From the IMG/VR virus record IMGVR_UViG_3300009132_000025, positions 1-27,426 of that record: a DNA stretch of 27,426 nt; one strand, written 5' to 3'. This DNA comes from a virus. Positions within the stretch are counted from its first letter, which is position 1, and every line of letters starts with the position of its first letter. The notes under the pieces were generated by a model, which saw only the letters and a list, made by a program, of their open reading frames with translations, was not told the origin of the DNA and ran no database searches. A program made the translations under genes and the position numbers. This document shows, in pieces, positions 4,629 through 26,617 of this stretch.

Positions 4629-5468
4629 ATGTGGCAGAACGCAAACAAATGGGGCCTTGGAGCCAACCTGATCGGTCAGGGTCTTGGGTTTGCAGGCCAA
4701 TACCTTCAGGGTAAGGCTAATGACAAAACCATGGCCGAGGCACAAGCTGCCGAAGATCAATACAACATGGCGGTTCAGGCCTTTCAGGATGAGCAGGCCC
4801 GTGCTGCACATGGTAGAGCCATGGCCGAATGGGAGGCTGCAAGAGCAAGGGAGCTCGCAATTCTCAAAGATCAGGGAGCAACACAGGATGAACTTTATGC
4901 ACACGATCAAGACTTGGCTAGGCAGTTTATGGAACAAGTTGCGCAGTTTGGCCCCGAAGAAGCGCAAGCCCAAATCGACGAAAACACAGCGGCCGCAATC
5001 GCGGAACAAGGCGAAGCGATAGAAGGGGCTAGGGCAGAGCGACCAGAAGTTGCAGCCCACATGAGCGATGCCTTCCAGAAAGCTGCGGCAGGTGCCATGG
5101 CTAAACAGGATGCGGTGGTTGACGATTATTCCACCGGACTTGCAGGCCTAACCGGGGTAACCCGACTGCGGCCCAAAGAGGACCTTGCTGCAATGACCAT
5201 TGGAACCATAGGTAACAACGGTGATCGCGTCAGAGAGCACATTGAGAGAATGGGAGGCCTGCGTCAACGCAGACTTGGGTACAACCCACCCTCACCCCCA
5301 AGTGGTCCGGGGTCTGATGCGGGAAGACCTGTAGAACCAGACATGGAATTTGCAACCCCTAACACAGGTAACTGGGTATCAGCGATTGGTTCCTTGCTGA
5401 CATCCGGCGCAAACATATTCGGTAACTGGAACCAGTTGAACAATCAAAAAACTAAGTGGGGTGGCTAG
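4629..5468 (+). CDS. Internal virion-like protein, Ala/Gln-rich coiled coil
   Basis: A 279-residue protein. I chose the ATG at 4629, just after the previous TGA (4625-4627) and preceded by a GGGGATA ribosome-binding site, over an upstream start that would lie deep in the previous gene. The N-terminus has a Gly-rich amphipathic stretch (LGANLIGQGLGFAGQYLQG). A long Ala/Glu/Gln-rich helical region follows (about residues 30-165) and then a Pro/Gly-rich tail. This resembles internal core proteins of podoviruses in composition only; no family is recognised. Confidence 0.55.
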   Translation: MWQNANKWGLGANLIGQGLGFAGQYLQGKANDKTMAEAQAAEDQYNMAVQAFQDEQARAAHGRAMAEWEAARARELAILKDQGATQDELYAHDQDLARQFMEQVAQFGPEEAQAQIDENTAAAIAEQGEAIEGARAERPEVAAHMSDAFQKAAAGAMAKQDAVVDDYSTGLAGLTGVTRLRPKEDLAAMTIGTIGNNGDRVREHIERMGGLRQRRLGYNPPSPPSGPGSDAGRPVEPDMEFATPNTGNWVSAIGSLLTSGANIFGNWNQLNNQKTKWGG

Positions 5469-6136: not shown

Positions 6137-9100
6137 ATGGCTAATCCTTATTGGGGGAATAAGGGTACGATAGATTCACTGCTGGATGGCCCGTCATTTG
6201 GGTCAGAGCCTACAGTACCTAACGCACCTAGCTCCCGTCAGTCCCAAACAGCTTCCATTGATTCCCTGCTTTCTGCTCCTGACCTACCACAGACTCAGGA
6301 GAGAAGCTGGGGTTCGCTCGCCTCTGACTTAGGCACATCATTTCTCAGCGGGACCGTGAACACGATAGGCGCTCTGTCTGCCGTGCCCGCACTCATGCCT
6401 GGGTTCAACCGGATCGCAGACCCCGTGTCTCAAGGCCTTGGCCAGGTTGCTGAGGACATCAATGAATGGGGACTGTCTGATTACCAGAAGAGCCAGAACC
6501 AGGCCTTTCAGGAAGCTATAGCTAACTCCGCAGCCCAGCTTGGGGAAGGTGCGTCCGTCTCTGATCACCTTGCCAACATCAAGAACCAAGGCGGTGCAGC
6601 GGGTCAGTTCATTCTTGAGAACCCATCACAAGCCCTCTCCTTAACTGCCGAATCACTGCCCTACCTGTTTGGCGGTAGTGGGGTAGCTCGCATTCTTGGG
6701 AAACTTGCTCCAACCATGGGCGTAGGAACTAGAGCTGCTATTGGTGAAGGTACGGTAGCTGCTGGCGCAAGCACTCAGCAAATTGTTGGTGACTTGCAGG
6801 ACCAGGGTGTTACTGGGTGGACTCCTGAGAGACTGTATGGAGCTGCTGCTGGTTTGGGTACGGCTGGTATTGGCCGACTTGGTGCCAAGCTACAAGGCCC
6901 TGTTGACGTAGACACGTTGCTTGCCGGTAAGGTTGGCAATCTAGGCAAGGCTCCTAATGCTGCTATTGGCGCAGCAAAGGGTGCTGGATTTGAGGCGGCT
7001 GAAGAGCTGCTGCAAGGTGCCCAGGAAGAGGCGTTTGGAAACCTCGCCACTGGCAGACCCATATCTGAGAACGTGGGCTCTAGTGCTATAGCTGGCTCCA
7101 TAGCTGGCGGTGGTATTGGTGGCTTAGCCGGGGCATTCGCTGGGATGGCTAGCTCATCCGCGACCCGGAACCAAAGCCCGTTGGCTCCCCCTGCCCCAGC
7201 CCAAGCAACTGCTGATCCGGCTGCTCCGGCCCAGGGTCAACAGCAGGCGGCAGCCGCCAATCAAGGGGATGGGTATGAGAACTCTGCGGCATTGGAAGGA
7301 GAGTTAAGCCCCTTTATTCAGCCTGCACCATCATTCCCAATAGGCGCGGCAGCTTCAGGCTTGCCAATTAGCCCTGATGGCCTGCCCTTTTCCCCTGTTC
7401 AGGCCCCGGCAAATGACGTACCCACAACACCCAGCAATAATACACCACAGGAAGGCCCAGGATCGCCTGTAACGGACGGTACGGCTGAGGCCATACCTTC
7501 CCCTACCCCCACGACACAGGGCAATACAGCGGCTCCACCGGCAGGATCGGAAGCATCGAAGATTCCCGTGGGCGATACGTTTGCTCCCAATAAAAGGCCC
7601 AAGGCTGCTGCTAAGCCTGTAGCGAAACCAAAGGCCCCAGCTAAAACCAAGGCCAAGAAAGCTGCGCCAAAGAAGGGTAAGGCGATCACTGACTTTCCAT
7701 CTACTGATCCAACGACCCAGGAAGAAGTTAAGAAGCTGGAGGCTCTTGTGACTCTGGCAAAAGAGGCCAGGAAGAACAAAGACAAAGCACTCCTTGAGGA
7801 AACTCAGAAGGCTATCCGAGCTCAGAAGGTGTACGTATCTAAGGCTCTGCGCGACTCCTACAAGGGTCAAACGAAAGCTGAGAAGGAAGCTGCTAAGCCA
7901 GAGCGAAAAGGCAAGGAGGCTTGGCTTGCTATTAGTAACGGCAAGATGGTGATGTCTAAGGGTAGGTCAGCTCCCAAAGATTCAGACGTTTATGTCAGAG
8001 CTGATAACAAGCCTGGACCAAAGGTTCACATAGACAAGACTAAGCGAACCAAGGCAGAGCAGGCTGTTGAGGACAAGATTCTGGACGGGCTCCTCAACTA
8101 CACAGGCCTTGACGGCAAGATGCCTATCTACATCTATCGTCAAAACCCACGCCAATACTCCAGGGCTACTAGGAAAAAACACTTCAAGGAAACCGGTAGA
8201 ACTGATCTAAACCCTGGCTCGCTCACGCCCGGTGCAGGCGGAAAAGCTGTAGCAGTAAATATCTACATTGAGGACTACCTGCTTGCGGCAGACGTTAAGC
8301 CTGGTTTTGACATAGACAAGGCTATTGAAGAAACACTTGCTCACGAAATAGGTGTGCATGGGGTCATGCGCCTTGGTGGCGATAAAGACATTGGCAAGGT
8401 TGGAACCAAGAGCGGCCCGTGGCCAGATTTCTGGAACAATGTATATGAAGAGAATAAGGAAGCCATTCGGCTCTGGATTAAAGAAGGCGGGGGTGGTGGG
8501 TACAGAGGTGTAGCGAACGGACTCAAGGCTGAGGAATGGTTTGCTGCAAAACTCCAGGGTGAGATTTCTGACATTGCCGAGGGCCGAGCTCAAACCTACA
8601 GCGCGAAAGTAAAGCGTTACCTGCGCCAGGTTCAGGCGTACCTGGATTCCATAACCGGCAAGAAGTACACATTTGACCAGGTTGCTGAGATGTTGGTTGA
8701 TGCAGCCGAGCGCACTGTCTTCAGCACTGACCAGACCTGGACCGGCAAAGAGCTTTGGTCTGAATCCAAGGATGGCGTCTTCTATGTTGATGACGTACAT
8801 GAATGGAAGAGCCGAGAGCCTAACTCACCAGCTGCAACCGATGAGCTGTATAGCCTCATTGAGGTTGGCGGTGCTAAGCCTGGTTACCCGGATAAGGGTG
8901 ATAACAACTATGCCTTCGGTGCTTGGTCTGGCAGTTACCTTAAAGGAGTGAGCAGCTGGGCATGGGGTGGCGCGACCAAGGCCATGGTTATGGATGGCGA
9001 TCTAAACCCCAAGGAGATGGGTGAGCTGTTTGGAAAGAATGTTCACTCAGCCTTTGGCTACCTTCATAGCAAGCTCAGCGGTGTACAAGGTATGGACCTT

Positions 9101-14888: not shown

Positions 14889-15176
14889 TTAGCTAAGATC
14901 AGATTCTTTGTTGAGGGCTTTCACCTCATCTTCCGTCAACAAGCGATGTAGGATGCTCCCATCCTCATGGCGCTCGACCTTGTAGGTCTTCGGCACCATC
15001 TCGTAGACGGTATAGATACCTTTGACCGGATCGTTGACCACGGCATTGGCATCCACCTCGATTTCGCGAGCCACTTGGCCCGCCCATTCCAGCGGGGATT
15101 TGAATCCCGCAGAACGGCTTAGTGCTTCAAACACTCTGTCGAATGCTCTGGCACTGTTCATTGTCATTAAAGACAT
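14889..15176 (-). CDS. Hypothetical phage protein
   Basis: A 95-residue protein with an acidic C-terminus. It shows a segment 'DPVKGIYTVYEMVPKTYKVERHEDGSILHRLLTEDEVKAL' (split here only in reading; residues about 50-90) but no domain I recognise. Start choice is ambiguous: the ATG at 15176 and a second ATG three codons later both lie downstream of three GGAGT repeats. It sits between ssb and the pilin genes in the leftward operon. Confidence 0.6.
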   Translation of the reverse strand: MSLMTMNSARAFDRVFEALSRSAGFKSPLEWAGQVAREIEVDANAVVNDPVKGIYTVYEMVPKTYKVERHEDGSILHRLLTEDEVKALNKESDLS

Positions 15177-22132: not shown

Positions 22133-22164
22133 TCCCAGTATAACACGAAATGACGTTATGTCAA
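22133..22164 (-). promoter_or_regulatory. Promoter C for the early replication unit
   Basis: On the minus strand TTGACA (22159-22164), a 16-bp spacer and TATACT (22137-22142) with a TGT extended -10, then GGGAATGACA. GTCATTTC lies 10 bp before GGGAATGAC, giving the clearest palindrome of the promoter family, centred on the -10. Confidence 0.8.
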
Positions 22165-22226
22165 AAACTATGGGGTTATAGAATAGCGATCCCAATAAAA
22201 ATGGGAACGGCAATCATGTATAATGC

Positions 22227-22236
22227 CGCCCCCGTA
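22227..22236 (+). repeat. CGCCCCCGTA direct repeat, copy 1
   Basis: A 10-bp sequence found again twice at 22323-22355, with the tRNA-Lys-like segment between. Copies on both sides of a candidate attP core could be integrase arm sites. Confidence 0.5.
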
Positions 22237-22257
22237 GGCTGGTGCCACTATATAAAG

Positions 22258-22307
22258 GATGACTCTTAATCAGCGAGTCGAAGGTTCGAATCCTTCACGG
22301 CCCACCA
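22258..22307 (+). other. 3' half of tRNA-Lys(CUU): candidate attP core
   Basis: The segment matches a tRNA from the anticodon stem to CCA: loop CTCTTAA with anticodon CTT, variable region, T-arm GAAGG-TTCGAAT-CCTTC and 3' acceptor ACGGCCC with CCA. The upstream bases do not form a matching 5' acceptor (GGGCCGT expected) or D-arm, so it is not a complete tRNA gene. Phages that integrate in tRNA genes carry exactly such a 3' half, with crossover in the anticodon or T-arm, to restore the host gene. It lies in a 230-nt intergenic region about 9 kb from the integrase. A relic tRNA or tRNA mimic is the alternative. Confidence 0.6.
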
Positions 22308-22322
22308 TAATAATAGACTCTG

Positions 22323-22355
22323 CGCCCCCGTAAGATGATCCCAAGCGCCCCCGTA
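22323..22355 (+). repeat. CGCCCCCGTA direct repeats, copies 2 and 3
   Basis: CGCCCCCGTA occurs at 22323-22332 and 22346-22355, a 23-bp period (about two helical turns), downstream of the tRNA-Lys segment. The second copy sits in the loop of a TGATCCC/GGGATCA stem. Possible integrase or excisionase arm sites. Confidence 0.5.
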
Positions 22356-22386
22356 TAGCGGGATCAAGCTGTTGTGGATTTGTCAT

Positions 22387-22629
22387 TTATGTATCCATAT
22401 CTGTAATCGCAGAAAGGGTTATCGCTGACTCATCAGCGGGCGGCGGTAGCTGGGCGCCGGTACGAACATATTCCCGGAAGGCCTCGCAGGCTCTAACTTT
22501 GGTTGCACAGTGTTGGTAGAACTTGCAGCCCCGCTCGCATGGTGGCGGCTCCTGGGAGAGGATTTCTACTACCAGGCGCTGAGATGGGAATAGGCTATGA
22601 CCCCAGGGTAACCGCTCCTGTGCGATCAT
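22387..22629 (-). CDS. Small Cys-cluster protein
   Basis: An 80-residue protein with C31-x3-C35-x5-C41-x6-C48 in CERGCKFYQHCATKVRACEA and FREYVRTG. This 'GC-FY-CA-AC-AF-YV-G' pattern recurs in small phage and bacterial proteins and suggests a zinc-binding knuckle. Start and the previous stop overlap (ATGA). It is the last gene of the leftward small-gene operon before the attP-like region. Function is unknown. Confidence 0.6.
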   Translation of the reverse strand: MIAQERLPWGHSLFPSQRLVVEILSQEPPPCERGCKFYQHCATKVRACEAFREYVRTGAQLPPPADESAITLSAITDMDT

Positions 22630-22793
22630 TGCAGCTTCTCCAGGGCTTCCAGGCCTCTCACAAACTCCCCCCCACCATTGCAGGCCTCCTGCTCTGATTG
22701 GTGGACGTAATCAATATAAGGCTGATTTTCAGGGCACAAGCACTCGTCCCGCAAAAATCTATCGCACTCTTCGCAATAGCCGTTGACGTACAT
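22626..22793 (-). CDS. Small Cys-rich protein
   Basis: A 55-residue protein; the ATG at 22791-22793 has CACAGGAG upstream as part of the repeated leader. The N-terminus has CEECDRF and ECLCPE, four cysteines in a zinc-knuckle-like layout; the rest is acidic and helical. Its stop overlaps the start of the next gene. Function is unknown. Confidence 0.6.
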   Translation of the reverse strand: MYVNGYCEECDRFLRDECLCPENQPYIDYVHQSEQEACNGGGEFVRGLEALEKLQ

Positions 22794-22827: not shown

Positions 22828-23481
22828 CTAGGCATAACGAAAGCCGTTTTTTTCTGCGCGAGCCCAGCGAGAGATACTGCTATGCGAATAACCCTCATAT
22901 TTGGCGCACTCTTTTGCTGAAGCGTAGCGAACCTCCTTGCCAAGGGCTAAAGTTTTAACAACCTCTTTTCTACTTGACTCGCTCATTTTTCTTCGAGCTT
23001 CTGCTGACACCTTGTGCCCCATTAAGCTTTCGCTAGTTTTCCGGCGAGTCTCGGAAGATCGTCTGAGCCCGTAATTGGGATTTTTTTCACCCAAATTGAT
23101 TTCTCTTAATTTTGCCTTATGCTTAGAAGATAGCTTTTTCCCTTTGTGACCCTCGGCAATCTTCTTACAAGTTTCGGAAGAGTGCTTATACCCGCTGGAA
23201 AAGAATGGAAACGCTACACAAATATTCGTGATTCGGCTGCCGTATTGATCCATTAAGGCGCGAATCAGAGCGGGCTCATCTTTCGCAATAGAATCATAAT
23301 CCGAAACATATAAAACCTCCTTCTCAAATTCGGAAGGATCACACGCTTCTAACAGGCCCCGCATGATATTGCGGCCCGTGGGGCTGCCCATATAGCTATC
23401 CCCATCCGGGGTGCCTTTACGGGAACCGGCATACATAAACCCGGTGGGCTTATGTGTTGTGAGATATAAATAACCTTGCAT
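22828..23481 (-). CDS. GIY-YIG-type homing endonuclease with NUMOD repeats
   Basis: A 217-residue protein. The N-terminus GYLYLTTHKPTGFMYAGSRKG is a GIY-YIG-like catalytic start with GYLY and YAG in place of the canonical triplets and R21 following. Residues about 95-170 hold three to four NUMOD3-like repeats (HSSETCKKIAEGHKG; KLSSKHKAKLREINLG; RSSETRRKTSESLMG; SAEARRKMSES). The C-terminus (YASAKECAKYEGYSHSSIS) is a NUMOD1-like HTH. This is the architecture of free-standing phage homing endonucleases, a selfish mobile gene. It has been adopted into the small-gene operon and has the same leader type as its neighbours. Confidence 0.8.
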   Translation of the reverse strand: MQGYLYLTTHKPTGFMYAGSRKGTPDGDSYMGSPTGRNIMRGLLEACDPSEFEKEVLYVSDYDSIAKDEPALIRALMDQYGSRITNICVAFPFFSSGYKHSSETCKKIAEGHKGKKLSSKHKAKLREINLGEKNPNYGLRRSSETRRKTSESLMGHKVSAEARRKMSESSRKEVVKTLALGKEVRYASAKECAKYEGYSHSSISRWARAEKNGFRYA

Positions 23482-23506
23482 GATAATTTCCTGTGAAAAT
23501 GGTAAA

Positions 23507-23523
23507 GAGCCCGTTAAGGGCTC
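23507..23523 (-). repeat. Intergenic hairpin unit
   Basis: GAGCCC and GGGCTC arms with a 5-nt loop, then TTTACC and CACAGGAA before the homing endonuclease ATG. It belongs to the repeated junction series but lacks the UNCG loop. Confidence 0.5.
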
Positions 23524-23526
23524 AGG

Positions 23527-23775
23527 CTAGCCCCAGCCCTCGCAAGTCTCGCAGGCTGGAACTATCTCCCTTGGGCCTCCAGACGGGAACTCCAGGCCCG
23601 TCCCATCGCAGTCGGGGCAAACTCCAGACTCATCAAGGGCCTCATAATCGCGGATTATTTCCTTTAGGGCCTCAATCGTATCCAGAAGCCGCCCGTCAAA
23701 TATGGGCGCCTGCGCTGCTGATTTTTTCTCGGCTTCGGCCAGCTGCTTTTGAAAATAAGCTTTGTCGTATTCCAT
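23527..23775 (-). CDS. DnaJ-type zinc-finger mini-protein
   Basis: An 82-residue protein. The N-terminal half is a charged helix (FQKQLAEAEKKSA). The C-terminal half has CPDCDGTG and CETCEGWG, two CxxCxGxG elements like one DnaJ zinc centre. Small phage proteins with this element probably bind zinc for protein or nucleic-acid contacts; the partner is unknown. Preceded by the repeated CACAGGAGA leader. Confidence 0.65.
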   Translation of the reverse strand: MEYDKAYFQKQLAEAEKKSAAQAPIFDGRLLDTIEALKEIIRDYEALDESGVCPDCDGTGLEFPSGGPREIVPACETCEGWG

Positions 23776-23800
23776 TCTCTGTCTCCTGTGTTGTGGTAAC

Positions 23801-23814
23801 GCCCCCGCAGGGGC
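23801..23814 (-). repeat. UNCG tetraloop hairpin at gene junction
   Basis: On the minus strand GCCCC-TGCG-GGGGC, a 5-bp stem with a UNCG loop, followed by GTTACCACAACACAGGAGA leading to the next gene. No U-tract. Confidence 0.7.
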
Positions 23815-23822
23815 TTAGGCGC

Positions 23823-23882
23823 TCAAAGCAGGCTAACCAGCAGCCAGCCTGCAAAGGGCGCTAGATAGGCGACATGACTCAT
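23823..23882 (-). CDS. Possible 19-residue membrane peptide
   Basis: A 19-codon reading frame whose ATG overlaps the previous stop as ATGA. The product is hydrophobic (YLAPFAGWLLVSLL) and could span a membrane. The overlap and the location before a junction hairpin suggest it is translated, but at this length it may be chance. Confidence 0.35.
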   Translation of the reverse strand: MSHVAYLAPFAGWLLVSLL

Positions 23883-24187
23883 TGGCTCGCCTCCTCGTAG
23901 CCCGCATCCGTGACCAGGTGGCCAAGCGGGACTTGGGCCTTATTAAAATCAAGGCCTTTCGTCTGACCGACAACGCCCTCTACCAGCATGAAGCTCACGC
24001 CATGCCCGTGATGGGGCTTGAGAGACACGCGGAAGCGATCCACGCCAGCGGAATCATCGTGCCAAACATCCGTCTCGATCCGGCCCGACCATGACGCCAC
24101 GTAAGCGCTCAGCCCGTCATCTTTGAACCCTCTGCTCGTCGCATTCTTGCGGTGGCTCGGCATGATCTCGGAATAGAAATGGGACAT
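23879..24187 (-). CDS. Hypothetical phage protein
   Basis: A 102-residue soluble protein rich in His, Gly and Ser (VSLKPHHGHGVSFMLVEG). The ATG at 24185-24187 has an AACAGGAGA leader; a GTG further upstream would include the leader and is unlikely. Function is unknown. Confidence 0.6.
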   Translation of the reverse strand: MSHFYSEIMPSHRKNATSRGFKDDGLSAYVASWSGRIETDVWHDDSAGVDRFRVSLKPHHGHGVSFMLVEGVVGQTKGLDFNKAQVPLGHLVTDAGYEEASQ

Positions 24188-24270
24188 TTTCAAATCTCCT
24201 GTTGTGTTGTGGTACGGACTGCCCTGCCAGATATCCACCAGGCTTGGAAACACTGAGAGGCCTGCAACAA

Positions 24271-24281
24271 CCCCGAAGGGG
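24271..24281 (-). repeat. UUCG tetraloop hairpin at gene junction
   Basis: On the minus strand CCCC-TTC-GGGG, which folds as a short stem closed by a C(UUCG)G loop, between the 47-residue membrane protein gene and the next gene. It is farther from the following start than in the other junctions. Confidence 0.55.
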
Positions 24282-24309
24282 CGCGACTCTCCGGCAGGGA
24301 CTTACGCCA

Positions 24310-24453
24310 CTAAATTTCGACGAATCTTGGCTCGTCATCGGCCATGTCTGGCAGCTCCTTAAAAGCTTCCGCGCTCTTGATCTGCGCGAAGAGAACCAGA
24401 GCAGTGACCGCAACGCCAACCGTCAGACCAAAAATTACAAATAGGCTCATCAT
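24310..24453 (-). CDS. Small single-pass membrane protein
   Basis: A 47-residue protein, starting at the ATG 24451-24453 with GGAGG upstream. Residues 3-20 are one hydrophobic helix (SLFVIFGLTVGVAVTALVL); the C-terminal 25 residues are acidic. Probably an inner-membrane protein with the tail in the cytoplasm. Function is unknown; candidates are lysis timing or exclusion. Confidence 0.6.
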   Translation of the reverse strand: MMSLFVIFGLTVGVAVTALVLFAQIKSAEAFKELPDMADDEPRFVEI

Positions 24454-24480
24454 CTTGAAACCTCCGTTTAAATTGGTTCA

Positions 24481-24494
24481 GCCCCCGAAGGGGC
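24481..24494 (-). repeat. UUCG tetraloop hairpin at gene junction
   Basis: On the minus strand GCCCC-TTCG-GGGGC, a cUUCGg hairpin placed after the 68-residue gene. The leader that follows differs from the usual TTACCACAA type. Confidence 0.7.
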
Positions 24495-24501
24495 AGGGCG
24501 C

Positions 24502-24708
24502 TTAATCAGCGCCGGGGAAGGGCTGCCGAACCCCTCGGACATAATGGGCACCGTCTCCGATGTCTAACGCCAGGCTCAGGCCTTCGTCTGCGCGAGGGAC
24601 GTGCAAATGCATGGCTGCCCGGCCTCCGACCATTAGGAACTCGCCCAGGGGCGTCCCGCCCTGCATCGTCTTGGCGCTCAGCTGCTCTAATATCTTTTGA
24701 TCGTTCAT
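24502..24708 (-). CDS. Hypothetical phage protein
   Basis: A 68-residue protein with the ATG at 24706-24708 after CAGAGGAC. It contains GGTPLGEFLMVGGRAAMHLH and LSLALDIGDG; no family is recognised. The stop lies 8 nt from the junction hairpin. Confidence 0.55.
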   Translation of the reverse strand: MNDQKILEQLSAKTMQGGTPLGEFLMVGGRAAMHLHVPRADEGLSLALDIGDGAHYVRGVRQPFPGAD

Positions 24709-24746
24709 AATAAATGTCCTCTGTGATTGAATTGTCATGTGGTAAG

Positions 24747-24760
24747 GCCCCCGAAGGGGC
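24747..24760 (-). repeat. UUCG tetraloop hairpin at gene junction
   Basis: On the minus strand GCCCC-TTCG-GGGGC, then CTTACCACATGACAATTC and a GAGGAC ribosome-binding site for the next gene. Confidence 0.7.
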
Positions 24761-24766
24761 GAGGGC

Positions 24767-25138
24767 TTAGGCTGCCTGATTGACATCCCAATCCCATAAG
24801 GGGCGATCATCTTCGAACTGGCCAACAGCGCCCGTCTCATCGGCATCAATCGCCGCTAGACGCTCTTGCAGCTCCAGGAAGGATTGCAGCCGAACCCGAT
24901 CTTCGCACCAGGGCTGGCCGCCATTGAGAACCACGGGCTCTCCCTTGGCGTTGAATACTTCGAACCCATACTCGACCGTCTTATCCTGATTCGGCCCTAC
25001 AACGTGGACACGCTCAGCCAGGATCATGTCTACGTCCCGCATCATGTCGGCAAAATCATCGTGACCCGCACGTGACCGAATATCTGAGAACCATTCGATC
25101 TCCGGGCGATTAACTGTGAAAGCATTTTCAAAACTCAT
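24767..25138 (-). CDS. Hypothetical acidic phage protein
   Basis: A 123-residue acidic protein (HDDFADMMRDVDMILAERV; IDADETGAVGQFEDDRPLW) with a Trp-rich C-terminus. It has the standard CACAGGAGA leader. Function is unknown. Confidence 0.6.
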   Translation of the reverse strand: MSFENAFTVNRPEIEWFSDIRSRAGHDDFADMMRDVDMILAERVHVVGPNQDKTVEYGFEVFNAKGEPVVLNGGQPWCEDRVRLQSFLELQERLAAIDADETGAVGQFEDDRPLWDWDVNQAA

Positions 25139-25168
25139 AATAGATATCTCCTGTGATTTGTGGTAATG

Positions 25169-25182
25169 GCGCCCGAAGGCGC
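25169..25182 (-). repeat. UUCG tetraloop hairpin at gene junction
   Basis: On the minus strand GCGCC-TTCG-GGCGC abutting the TAA of the 27-residue gene, then ATTACCACAAATCACAGGAG before the next ATG. Confidence 0.75.
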
Positions 25183-25266
25183 TTAAATGTCTCCCAGGGC
25201 TAAGCAGGCAAGAATCGCACCAACGCCCAGGAATACGACTAACATCATAATAAGATCGGCAAGCAT
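25183..25266 (-). CDS. 27-residue membrane peptide
   Basis: The ATG at 25264-25266 follows CACAGGAGATAATT in the repeated leader and the TAA abuts a tetraloop hairpin, so both ends are marked as a real gene. The product is almost wholly hydrophobic (IMMLVVFLGVGAILACLAL), a single membrane helix with an acidic tail. Function is unknown. Confidence 0.6.
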   Translation of the reverse strand: MLADLIMMLVVFLGVGAILACLALGDI

Positions 25267-25292
25267 AATTATCTCCTGTGAATTGTGGTAAC

Positions 25293-25308
25293 AGCGCCCG
25301 AAGGCGCT
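25293..25308 (-). repeat. UUCG tetraloop hairpin overlapping a stop codon
   Basis: On the minus strand AGCGCC-TTCG-GGCGCT; the first two bases lie inside the TAG of the 58-residue gene. GTTACCACAATTCACAGGAG follows before the next ATG. Confidence 0.75.
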
Positions 25309-25483
25309 AAGCAGGCAAGGCCCGGCCCGAATCCAAAAAGGCGCGAACATCCTCCTTCCTGGATTTTTGAGACGCCCGATCAAGGCGCTCAATTGCGGAA
25401 GGCTGCTGGATAATTTCCAGCGTTGAATCTTCCACCTTTACGACAGTGCGGCTTACAGTTGAATCTTTTTGATCGTAGCCCAT
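25307..25483 (-). CDS. Hypothetical protein, first gene of the small-gene operon
   Basis: A 58-residue, charged protein (STVSRTVVKVEDSTLEIIQQ; IERLDRASQKSRKEDVRAF), starting at the ATG 25481-25483 with CGGAGAT upstream. It lies about 40 nt downstream of a strong promoter. No family is recognised. Confidence 0.6.
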   Translation of the reverse strand: MGYDQKDSTVSRTVVKVEDSTLEIIQQPSAIERLDRASQKSRKEDVRAFLDSGRALPA

Positions 25484-25525: not shown

Positions 25526-25554
25526 AATATAATCAATTCAAATTGGCTTGTCAA
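25526..25554 (-). promoter_or_regulatory. Strong sigma-70 promoter for the small-gene operon
   Basis: On the minus strand TTGACA (25549-25554), a 17-bp spacer and TATATT (25526-25531). It lacks the GGGAGTGA motif of the other promoters, so it may escape the same control. Confidence 0.75.
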
Positions 25555-25591
25555 GGCTTTTTGAAATCTTTTATTAAATGCGTTGTGCTCT

Positions 25592-25628
25592 CACTCCTAT
25601 TATATCACACTCCGTCATTTAAATACAA
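25592..25628 (-). promoter_or_regulatory. Promoter D, upstream of the small-gene operon
   Basis: On the minus strand TTGTAT (25623-25628), 18 bp, TATAAT (25599-25604) with a TGA extended -10, then AGGAGTGAG. A second GGAGTG lies 10 bp upstream as a direct repeat. It is back to back with promoter E. Confidence 0.7.
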
Positions 25629-25685: not shown

Positions 25686-25703
25686 TGCTATACTGGGAGT
25701 GTA
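25686..25703 (+). promoter_or_regulatory. Promoter E for the terminase-side operon
   Basis: Extended -10 TGC-TATACT (25689-25694) followed by GGGAGTG; no good -35 is visible. It lies about 45 nt before the terminase small-subunit candidate. Confidence 0.6.
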
Positions 25704-25742
25704 TTGTCTAGGTTAATAATAGATTAAACAAAGGGAAATTGG

Positions 25743-26380: not shown

Positions 26381-26410
26381 TTGACACAGCGTCATATTTT
26401 ATGATATAAT
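26381..26410 (+). promoter_or_regulatory. Promoter F, near-consensus
   Basis: TTGACA (26381-26386), 18-bp spacer, TATAAT (26405-26410) with a TGA extended -10, then GGCAGTGATAG. Nothing is encoded for the next 200 nt; it drives a structured RNA or a long leader. Confidence 0.8.
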
Positions 26411-26582: not shown

Positions 26583-26617
26583 TTGAGCCCATCACACTTC
26601 GTCATATAATGGGAGTG
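26583..26617 (+). promoter_or_regulatory. Promoter G for the HNH-terminase unit
   Basis: TTGAGC (26583-26588), 16 bp, TATAAT (26605-26610), then GGGAGTGATG. CATCACACTTC lies 10 bp before GGGAGTGATG, forming a long palindrome around the -10. The HNH ATG lies at the expected transcription start. Confidence 0.75.

Follow-up and report, generated by a model that had tools for sequence, protein, structure and literature searches.

Intercistronic hairpin and leader units in the small-gene operon of an uncultivated temperate phage

What is the role of the short hairpins and repeated leaders that recur between the genes of one small-gene operon in a phage seen solely as metagenome DNA? The operon lies in IMG/VR virus record IMGVR_UViG_3300009132_000025, whose 27,426 bases, here called the window, come from a temperate tailed phage and encode an integrase, a RecT/exonuclease pair, a repressor-like protein, a primase/helicase and the start of TerL. 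Its genes, A to K, occupy the minus strand from 25483 to 22387 with a strong promoter-like sequence ahead, and the window hairpins, leaders and genes described below are all on that strand. At many of its junctions a hairpin past the stop codon is followed by a leader and the next start codon; we call hairpin and leader together a unit. In our judgement there is an even chance that the units consist of intercistronic mRNA hairpins joined to a standard start leader, the hairpins serving chiefly as barriers to 3' exonucleases. At the level of sequence, the case consists of repetition, placement after stop codons, syntenic conservation, pair-preserving changes, and homology limited to the junctions amid differing genes.

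Hairpins and leaders at the operon junctions

Strict hairpins, defined by a cUNCGg loop and a stem of 5 bp or more, are present on the message (minus) strand at the A/B, B/C, C/D, D/E and G/H junctions, all five with perfect GC-rich stems of 5-7 bp. The loop is cUUCGg at four junctions and cUGCGg, also within the UNCG tetraloop class, at G/H. These hairpins begin 0-8 nt past the upstream stop codon and 13-25 nt ahead of the Shine-Dalgarno site. The A/B hairpin (UAGCGCC-UUCG-GGCGCUG, 25292-25309) has the stop UAG within its 5' arm and folds at -12 kcal/mol (z -2.74); the B/C hairpin (GCGCC-UUCG-GGCGC, 25169-25182) starts 0 nt past its stop, and those at C/D (GCCCC-UUCG-GGGGC, 24747-24760), D/E (GCCCC-UUCG-GGGGC, 24481-24494) and G/H (GCCCC-UGCG-GGGGC, 23801-23814) start 6, 7 and 8 nt past theirs. 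A further hairpin with a 5-nt loop stands at H/I (GAGCCC-UUAAC-GGGCUC, 23507-23523; z -3.31), 3 nt past the stop and followed by UUUACCAUUUUCACAGGA. The 122-nt E/F gap (24188..24309) carries a weak cUUCGg and the leader GTACCACAACACAACAGGAGA, and tested as structured RNA this gap folds no better than its shuffles (z -0.40). Genes F and G overlap by 4 nt, and their junction has no unit.

A preliminary description of this DNA had reported six junctions with near-identical stems, five closed by UUCG and one by UGCG, most of them close to the upstream stop. Its coordinates and layout stand, as do the single UGCG loop and, for the five strict hairpins (0-8 nt), the closeness to the stop. The count requires amendment: the strict UUCG hairpins number four, the fifth (E/F) is weak, H/I had gone uncounted, and not one but two main stem classes are present, GCGCC/GGCGC and GCCCC/GGGGC.

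The clustering of these hairpins is not expected by chance. All five strict hairpins fall within 2,010 nt, at least three were obtained in 0 of 2,000 dinucleotide shuffles, and none was found outside those junctions across the whole window. The motif CTTCGG is itself not enriched in the window (14 seen vs 12.1 expected), so the excess lies in stems at junctions and not in the motif. Rfam gave no match to the window at gathering thresholds; the sub-threshold match at C/D, to PhotoRC-I, reached 17.5 vs 45 bits.

The leader is the second repeated part. The sequence TTACCACAA occurs exactly ahead of B, C and H and with one mismatch ahead of D and F, so the preliminary claim of a repeated leader followed by ATG is borne out exactly at three genes and to within one mismatch at two more. 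Leaders include TTACCACAATTCACAGGAGATAATT at A/B (25267..25291), TTACCACAAATCACAGGAGATATCTATT at B/C (25139..25166) and TTACCACAACACAGGAGACAGAGA at G/H (23776..23799), and they terminate in Shine-Dalgarno sites followed by ATG. Ahead of A, I and J stand looser, A/C-rich versions, those of A and J (GTATCACAAATCCACCACAGGAGA at J) having no hairpin. Units are short, about 45-60 nt; the A/B and B/C units form a 44-nt direct repeat with 89% identity, and a 14-nt perfect repeat is common to the end of gene A and the 3' part of gene B. Across IMG/VR, the exact leader pattern returned 23 chance or coding matches and no units, and the combined hairpin and leader pattern returned zero matches. Leader-like sequence (ATGACAAATCCACAACAG, 22369-22386; 83-89% like other leaders) also lies past gene K, with no further gene following, and is perhaps a relic of a lost gene beside the phage attachment site (attP) proposed below.

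Two syntenic relatives and the exchange of genes

Two syntenic relatives were found. Queries with the primase and RecT identified L027 (12.8 kb) as the sole close relative, with identities to the window of 74% for the primase, 79% for the exonuclease and 85% for RecT. Scanning with gene F brought up 19 further contigs, one of which, L086 (G014, 19.9 kb), is syntenic: it has a 480-aa plus-strand ORF at the TerL position, a minus-strand operon and orthologs of K, O, S and T. A gene C query found no relative, TerL relatives stop short of the operon region, and genome-contig scans together with searches of 369 and 385 genomes from two bacterial classes gave no syntenic prophage. Rfam searches of L027 and L086 gave no match up to E 0.5. 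Among the other contigs with gene F, the closely related L081 and L082 have cUACGg or cUGCGg hairpins past stops. Two TerL relatives, L041 (8692-8707) and L098 (6849-6864), contain an identical hairpin, GCCCC-CGCAAG-GGGGC, past a stop outside the operon discussed here.

The L086 operon has an array of its own, with eight stop-hairpin units at 14908, 14545, 14162, 13874, 13586, 13253, 12285 and 11952, six of which pass a strict scan for stop, hairpin, Shine-Dalgarno site and ATG. Its stems are (A)GCCCC/GGGGC(T) or pair-preserving variants of it, its loops are UAAC, AAAC, UACG and GAACU, and its leader is of its own type, TTAAACACAACAA, followed by GAGGA or a similar site. Leader likeness is significantly higher within a genome than between genomes. 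In L027, the D/E junction retains a cUUCGg hairpin (GGCCCCC/GGGGGCC, 5240-5257).

The preliminary description had looked to relatives for compensatory changes in the stem, and these are present. Of 15 hairpins, the 13 with 4-nt loops were aligned without gaps, the two with 5-nt loops being left out; 91% of the cells of the alignment are paired and two-sided changes occur at four of the six stem pairs. The covariation score, which is inflated in that the hairpins were picked because they pair and is further qualified by the relatedness of copies from the same genome, was reached by 0 of 500 shuffles, and slid alignments pair far worse.

Gene content, which the preliminary description had also proposed to compare, differs between these relatives. 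Gene order around the operon is the same in L027 and the window and the gene set differs: D, F, G and K are recognisably common and E occupies the corresponding position; L027 lacks C, H, I and J and has a, b and X as new genes. Only F and K of the window operon proteins are recognisable in L086. Within L086, homology between the unit that precedes p3 and the one that precedes p4 starts at the upstream stop codon, runs through hairpin and leader and reaches about the sixth codon, past which p3 and p4 are unrelated; the units ahead of p9 and of the gene that follows it show the same pattern. In addition, p1 and p3 are paralogs with the unrelated p2 between them. This unit-limited homology is the footprint expected of recombination joints. 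That most operon genes differ and that unit homology ends just inside the flanking genes gives good sequence support for gene exchange at the units, though not proof of exchange at every one. Together, the compensatory changes and the gene turnover support the idea of a unit that is both structured and a recombination joint, the cassette that the preliminary description had proposed. As a side observation, p1 (14928-15170), whose tandem paralog p3 lies two genes on, has a near-threshold match to Pfam DUF7249 (26.5 vs 27 bits).

Known systems and the reading of the units

The element type is already known; it is the array with a common leader that stands out. Known status follows both from the literature on CUUCGG hairpins in phages and from single junctions of the stop-hairpin layout, such as E/FI of lambda at 7163 and 44/45 of T4 at 31899. 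An automatic rule asking for a hairpin of 5 bp or more past the stop and, after it, a Shine-Dalgarno site and ATG undercounts, and missed the L027 D/E hairpin. Per 10 kb it gave about 30 cases in the window operon, 0-2.3 in 21 other contigs or segments, 1.0 in T4 (first 50 kb) and 0.6 in lambda; one further case lies elsewhere in the window.

PMC8948821 describes CUUCGG hairpins as common in phage intergenic regions (citing Tuerk et al. 1988), reports that a 5' CUUCGG hairpin stabilises T4 gene 32 mRNA, and defines the intercistronic element as (X)2-8 CUUCGG (Y)2-8 with complementary arms, lying mainly between genes and stopping reverse transcriptase or stabilising mRNA. The window hairpins resemble this element as cUUCGg-closed stems between co-transcribed genes, often right past the stop and ahead of a Shine-Dalgarno site; four fit the sequence definition, and all five strict hairpins are at junctions. 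They depart from it in that members with UGCG, UAAC and AAAC loops are outside the strict definition, that the window packs five or six into 2 kb with a common leader, and that L086 retains the stem while dropping the UUCG loop.

A close analogue is the SAS/ESAS repeat of cluster K mycobacteriophages, which lies just upstream of many small non-structural genes with a Shine-Dalgarno core inside; about half of SAS copies have an inverted repeat upstream, whose consensus varies between phages (PMC3203893). Window leaders similarly sit a few nucleotides upstream of starts and end in Shine-Dalgarno sites. In contrast, ESAS arms are 17-bp imperfect repeats, whereas window stems are perfect, 5-7 bp long and tied to the upstream stop, and the 13-bp SAS consensus GGGATAGGAGCCC has no match here at up to two mismatches, its three-mismatch matches being at chance level. 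The promoter-stem-loop (PeSL) cassettes of T4-type phages (Arbiol 2010 and Comeau 2014, cited in PMC4503421) are repeated intergenic stem-loops at which small genes are shuffled. They compare with the units in that gene content shifts between relatives, two in our case, with homology limited to the units, and differ in that window units have neither a promoter nor a terminator U-tract; a consensus scan of the window for promoters inside units gave a best match of 9/12, at B/C only.

For function, galE supplies the nearest tested precedent: its intercistronic hairpin, with a stem of 8 bp and a loop of 4 nt, lies close to an internal stop, blocks exonucleases and stabilises the upstream message (PMC11925234). 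A further model is given by Escherichia coli REPs, which are reported to stall ribosomes when less than 16 nt from the stop (Liang 2015, cited in PMC12306157). Both are chromosomal and of other sequence, and we use them only as examples of how a hairpin near an internal stop can act against 3' exonucleases or terminating ribosomes, with no claim of membership. A unit of the phage operon has two parts, a GC-rich hairpin of 5-7 bp with a compact loop of 4-5 nt, often cUUCGg, 0-8 nt past the stop, and an A/C-rich, genome-specific leader that runs through a Shine-Dalgarno site to the next ATG. On the polycistronic transcript, the hairpin would block 3'-to-5' exonucleases of the RNase II or PNPase type, so that the message of each cistron would be stabilised and set apart from its neighbour, and the leader would let translation restart independently. 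Being short expression joints, nearly identical to one another, the units are probably also the sites where recombination inserts, duplicates or swaps small genes, and such recombination would help to keep the copies within one phage alike. Protection of 3' ends, which the preliminary description had suggested, is plausible on the strength of these precedents.

Several observations weigh against exonuclease barriers as the role of the units. The E/F cUUCGg has a CCC/GGG core of just 3 bp about 32 nt past the stop, and E/F of L027 has no hairpin. At C/D, slightly, and at G/H the minimum-energy fold prefers another pairing register, which is still a hairpin. L027 holds one such unit only, which shows that the lineage can do without the array, and L027 gained gene X without a unit. 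The inflation of the covariation score noted above counts on the same side.

The main rival, which we consider somewhat unlikely, is that the hairpins are weak intrinsic terminators or attenuators. Each would let through only a fraction of the polymerases and so grade expression down the operon, and all would have arisen from true terminators whose U-tracts disappeared as genes came in downstream. The G/K junction of L027 argues for it: just after G is a 13-bp cUGCGg hairpin followed by seven U (AUUUUUUU), a proper terminator, where the window has cUGCGg without a U-tract. Because that terminator shares the UGCG loop, a terminator-derived or attenuator role for the window hairpins retains some weight, although for the window the preliminary view that these are not ordinary terminators is supported. 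Some L086 units and H/I also have 3-4 U past the stem, and T4 and lambda counterparts of the layout often have 4-6 U. The window units point the other way, with the lack of a U-tract in the preliminary description upheld: only 1-2 U occur in the 8 nt past the stem at UNCG units (4 at H/I), and U-run scores there are 0.6-1.8 vs 2.8 for the L027 terminator. Scans for terminator-like sites called none at any unit, and L086 has a strong U-tract terminator only at the operon end, after K.

Translation control is unlikely as the main role; in this case a hairpin no more than about 15 nt from the stop would delay the release of ribosomes, reduce the yield of the upstream gene, or prevent reinitiation at the next gene and coupling to it. 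The start of all strict units 0-8 nt past the stop would suit such a role, given the stalling reported for close REPs, whereas shuffling the hairpin leaves accessibility of the next Shine-Dalgarno site unchanged (0.43 vs 0.40, 0.45 vs 0.43 and 0.43 vs 0.46, among others) in a test that covers local folding only and is blind to ribosome behaviour. Insulation of the ribosome site by the hairpin was set aside on this negative accessibility result. It is more doubtful still that the units are kept mainly as PeSL-like cassettes for gene shuffling, with no strong RNA function. Their limited homology, the differing gene content and the homing-endonuclease-like gene I between units would all fit, but homologous recombination needs neither pair-preserving changes nor fixed placement at stop codons, and the units are short. 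Very improbable are DNA sites for a phage regulator (operators or stoperators), which would explain why the stems are palindromic and repeated, and translational bypass as in T4 gene 60, whose annotated bypass region has a cUUCGg hairpin. We rejected both: the units accompany stop and start codons and not promoters, stems vary with compensation while loops change, and, on inspection of the sequence, the last sense codon before the stop varies and every downstream gene has its own start site. Processing by RNase III was also rejected, the stems being shorter than that enzyme is generally taken to need, as was processing by RNase E, as inspection of the leaders by eye revealed no constant RNase E-like site.

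Operon genes, nearby sites and wider meaning

A predicted σ70-like promoter, TTGACA-17-TATATT (11/12 matches in a consensus scan), lies at the operon head (25526..25554, minus strand). The operon begins with A (58 aa, 25307..25483), taken from the ORF list and its translation and lacking a Pfam or PHROG match, and B (27 aa, 25183..25266), hydrophobic by translation. C (123 aa, 24767..25138) and H (82 aa, 23527..23775), both from the ORF list, are in neither relative on comparison; D (68 aa, 24502..24708) has an L027 ortholog by the same comparison, and E (47 aa, 24310..24453; ORF list) has a hydrophobic N-terminus in translation. F (102 aa, 23879..24187) belongs to the MSHFY family, which is present in many phages with differing neighbours (L060 at 611-895 and loci L062-L080); one is the Pelagibacter phage HTVC022P, in which the leader before F is similar to that of L027. 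G (19 aa, hydrophobic, 23823..23882) is likely a real microprotein, judging by its core YLAPFAGWLLVSLL, which is kept in L027 (41-nt match at 90%) despite silent changes. I (22828..23481) is homing-endonuclease-like (NUMOD3) by domain search and is missing from L027 on comparison; J (22626..22793) precedes K (80 aa, 22387..22629), which has orthologs in L027 and L086 and anchors the operon end. Where tried, Pfam and PHROG searches gave no named function for A, C, D, E, F, H or K.

Sites near the operon were also recorded. Positions 22260-22312 hold the 3' part of a tRNA-Lys(CUU)-like sequence that matches the attP of phages HP1 and S2; three copies of CGCCCCCGTA, vs 0.06 expected, lie in the flanks (22227-22355), the integrase gene is about 8.5 kb away, and L027 has a tRNA end of the same kind at 6418-6462. 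The tRNA end and the repeats are probably an attP with integrase arm sites. Promoter-like sites at 22140-22165, 25590-25620, 25690-25710, 26381-26410 and 26583-26610 have in common both TATAAT-gGGAGTGA and nearby TGACG/CGTCA half-sites, on both strands (seen by eye and partly by scan), and are possibly a repressor regulon. Between a promoter-like sequence and the first operon gene, L027 (4450-4700) and L086 (15180-15400) each carry a long 5' leader that folds strongly (z -3.21 in L027, -1.88 in L086) and has no Rfam match; the window leader there is short.

Another reading, about as doubtful as that of shuffling cassettes, is that the unit serves as an expression cassette specific to its lineage, its copies evolving in concert in each phage genome because an RNA-binding protein or nuclease encoded by the phage reads that genome's own pair of hairpin and leader. 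If so, a small gene captured between two units would come under the same post-transcriptional control as its neighbours. More generally, these results suggest that the small-gene operons of an uncultivated phage lineage may be built from a standard joint of stop, hairpin, leader and start that is kept while genes change. The long-standing question of the role of intercistronic phage hairpins and start-associated repeats becomes testable here, because one operon supplies between six and eight natural replicates, flanked by different genes.

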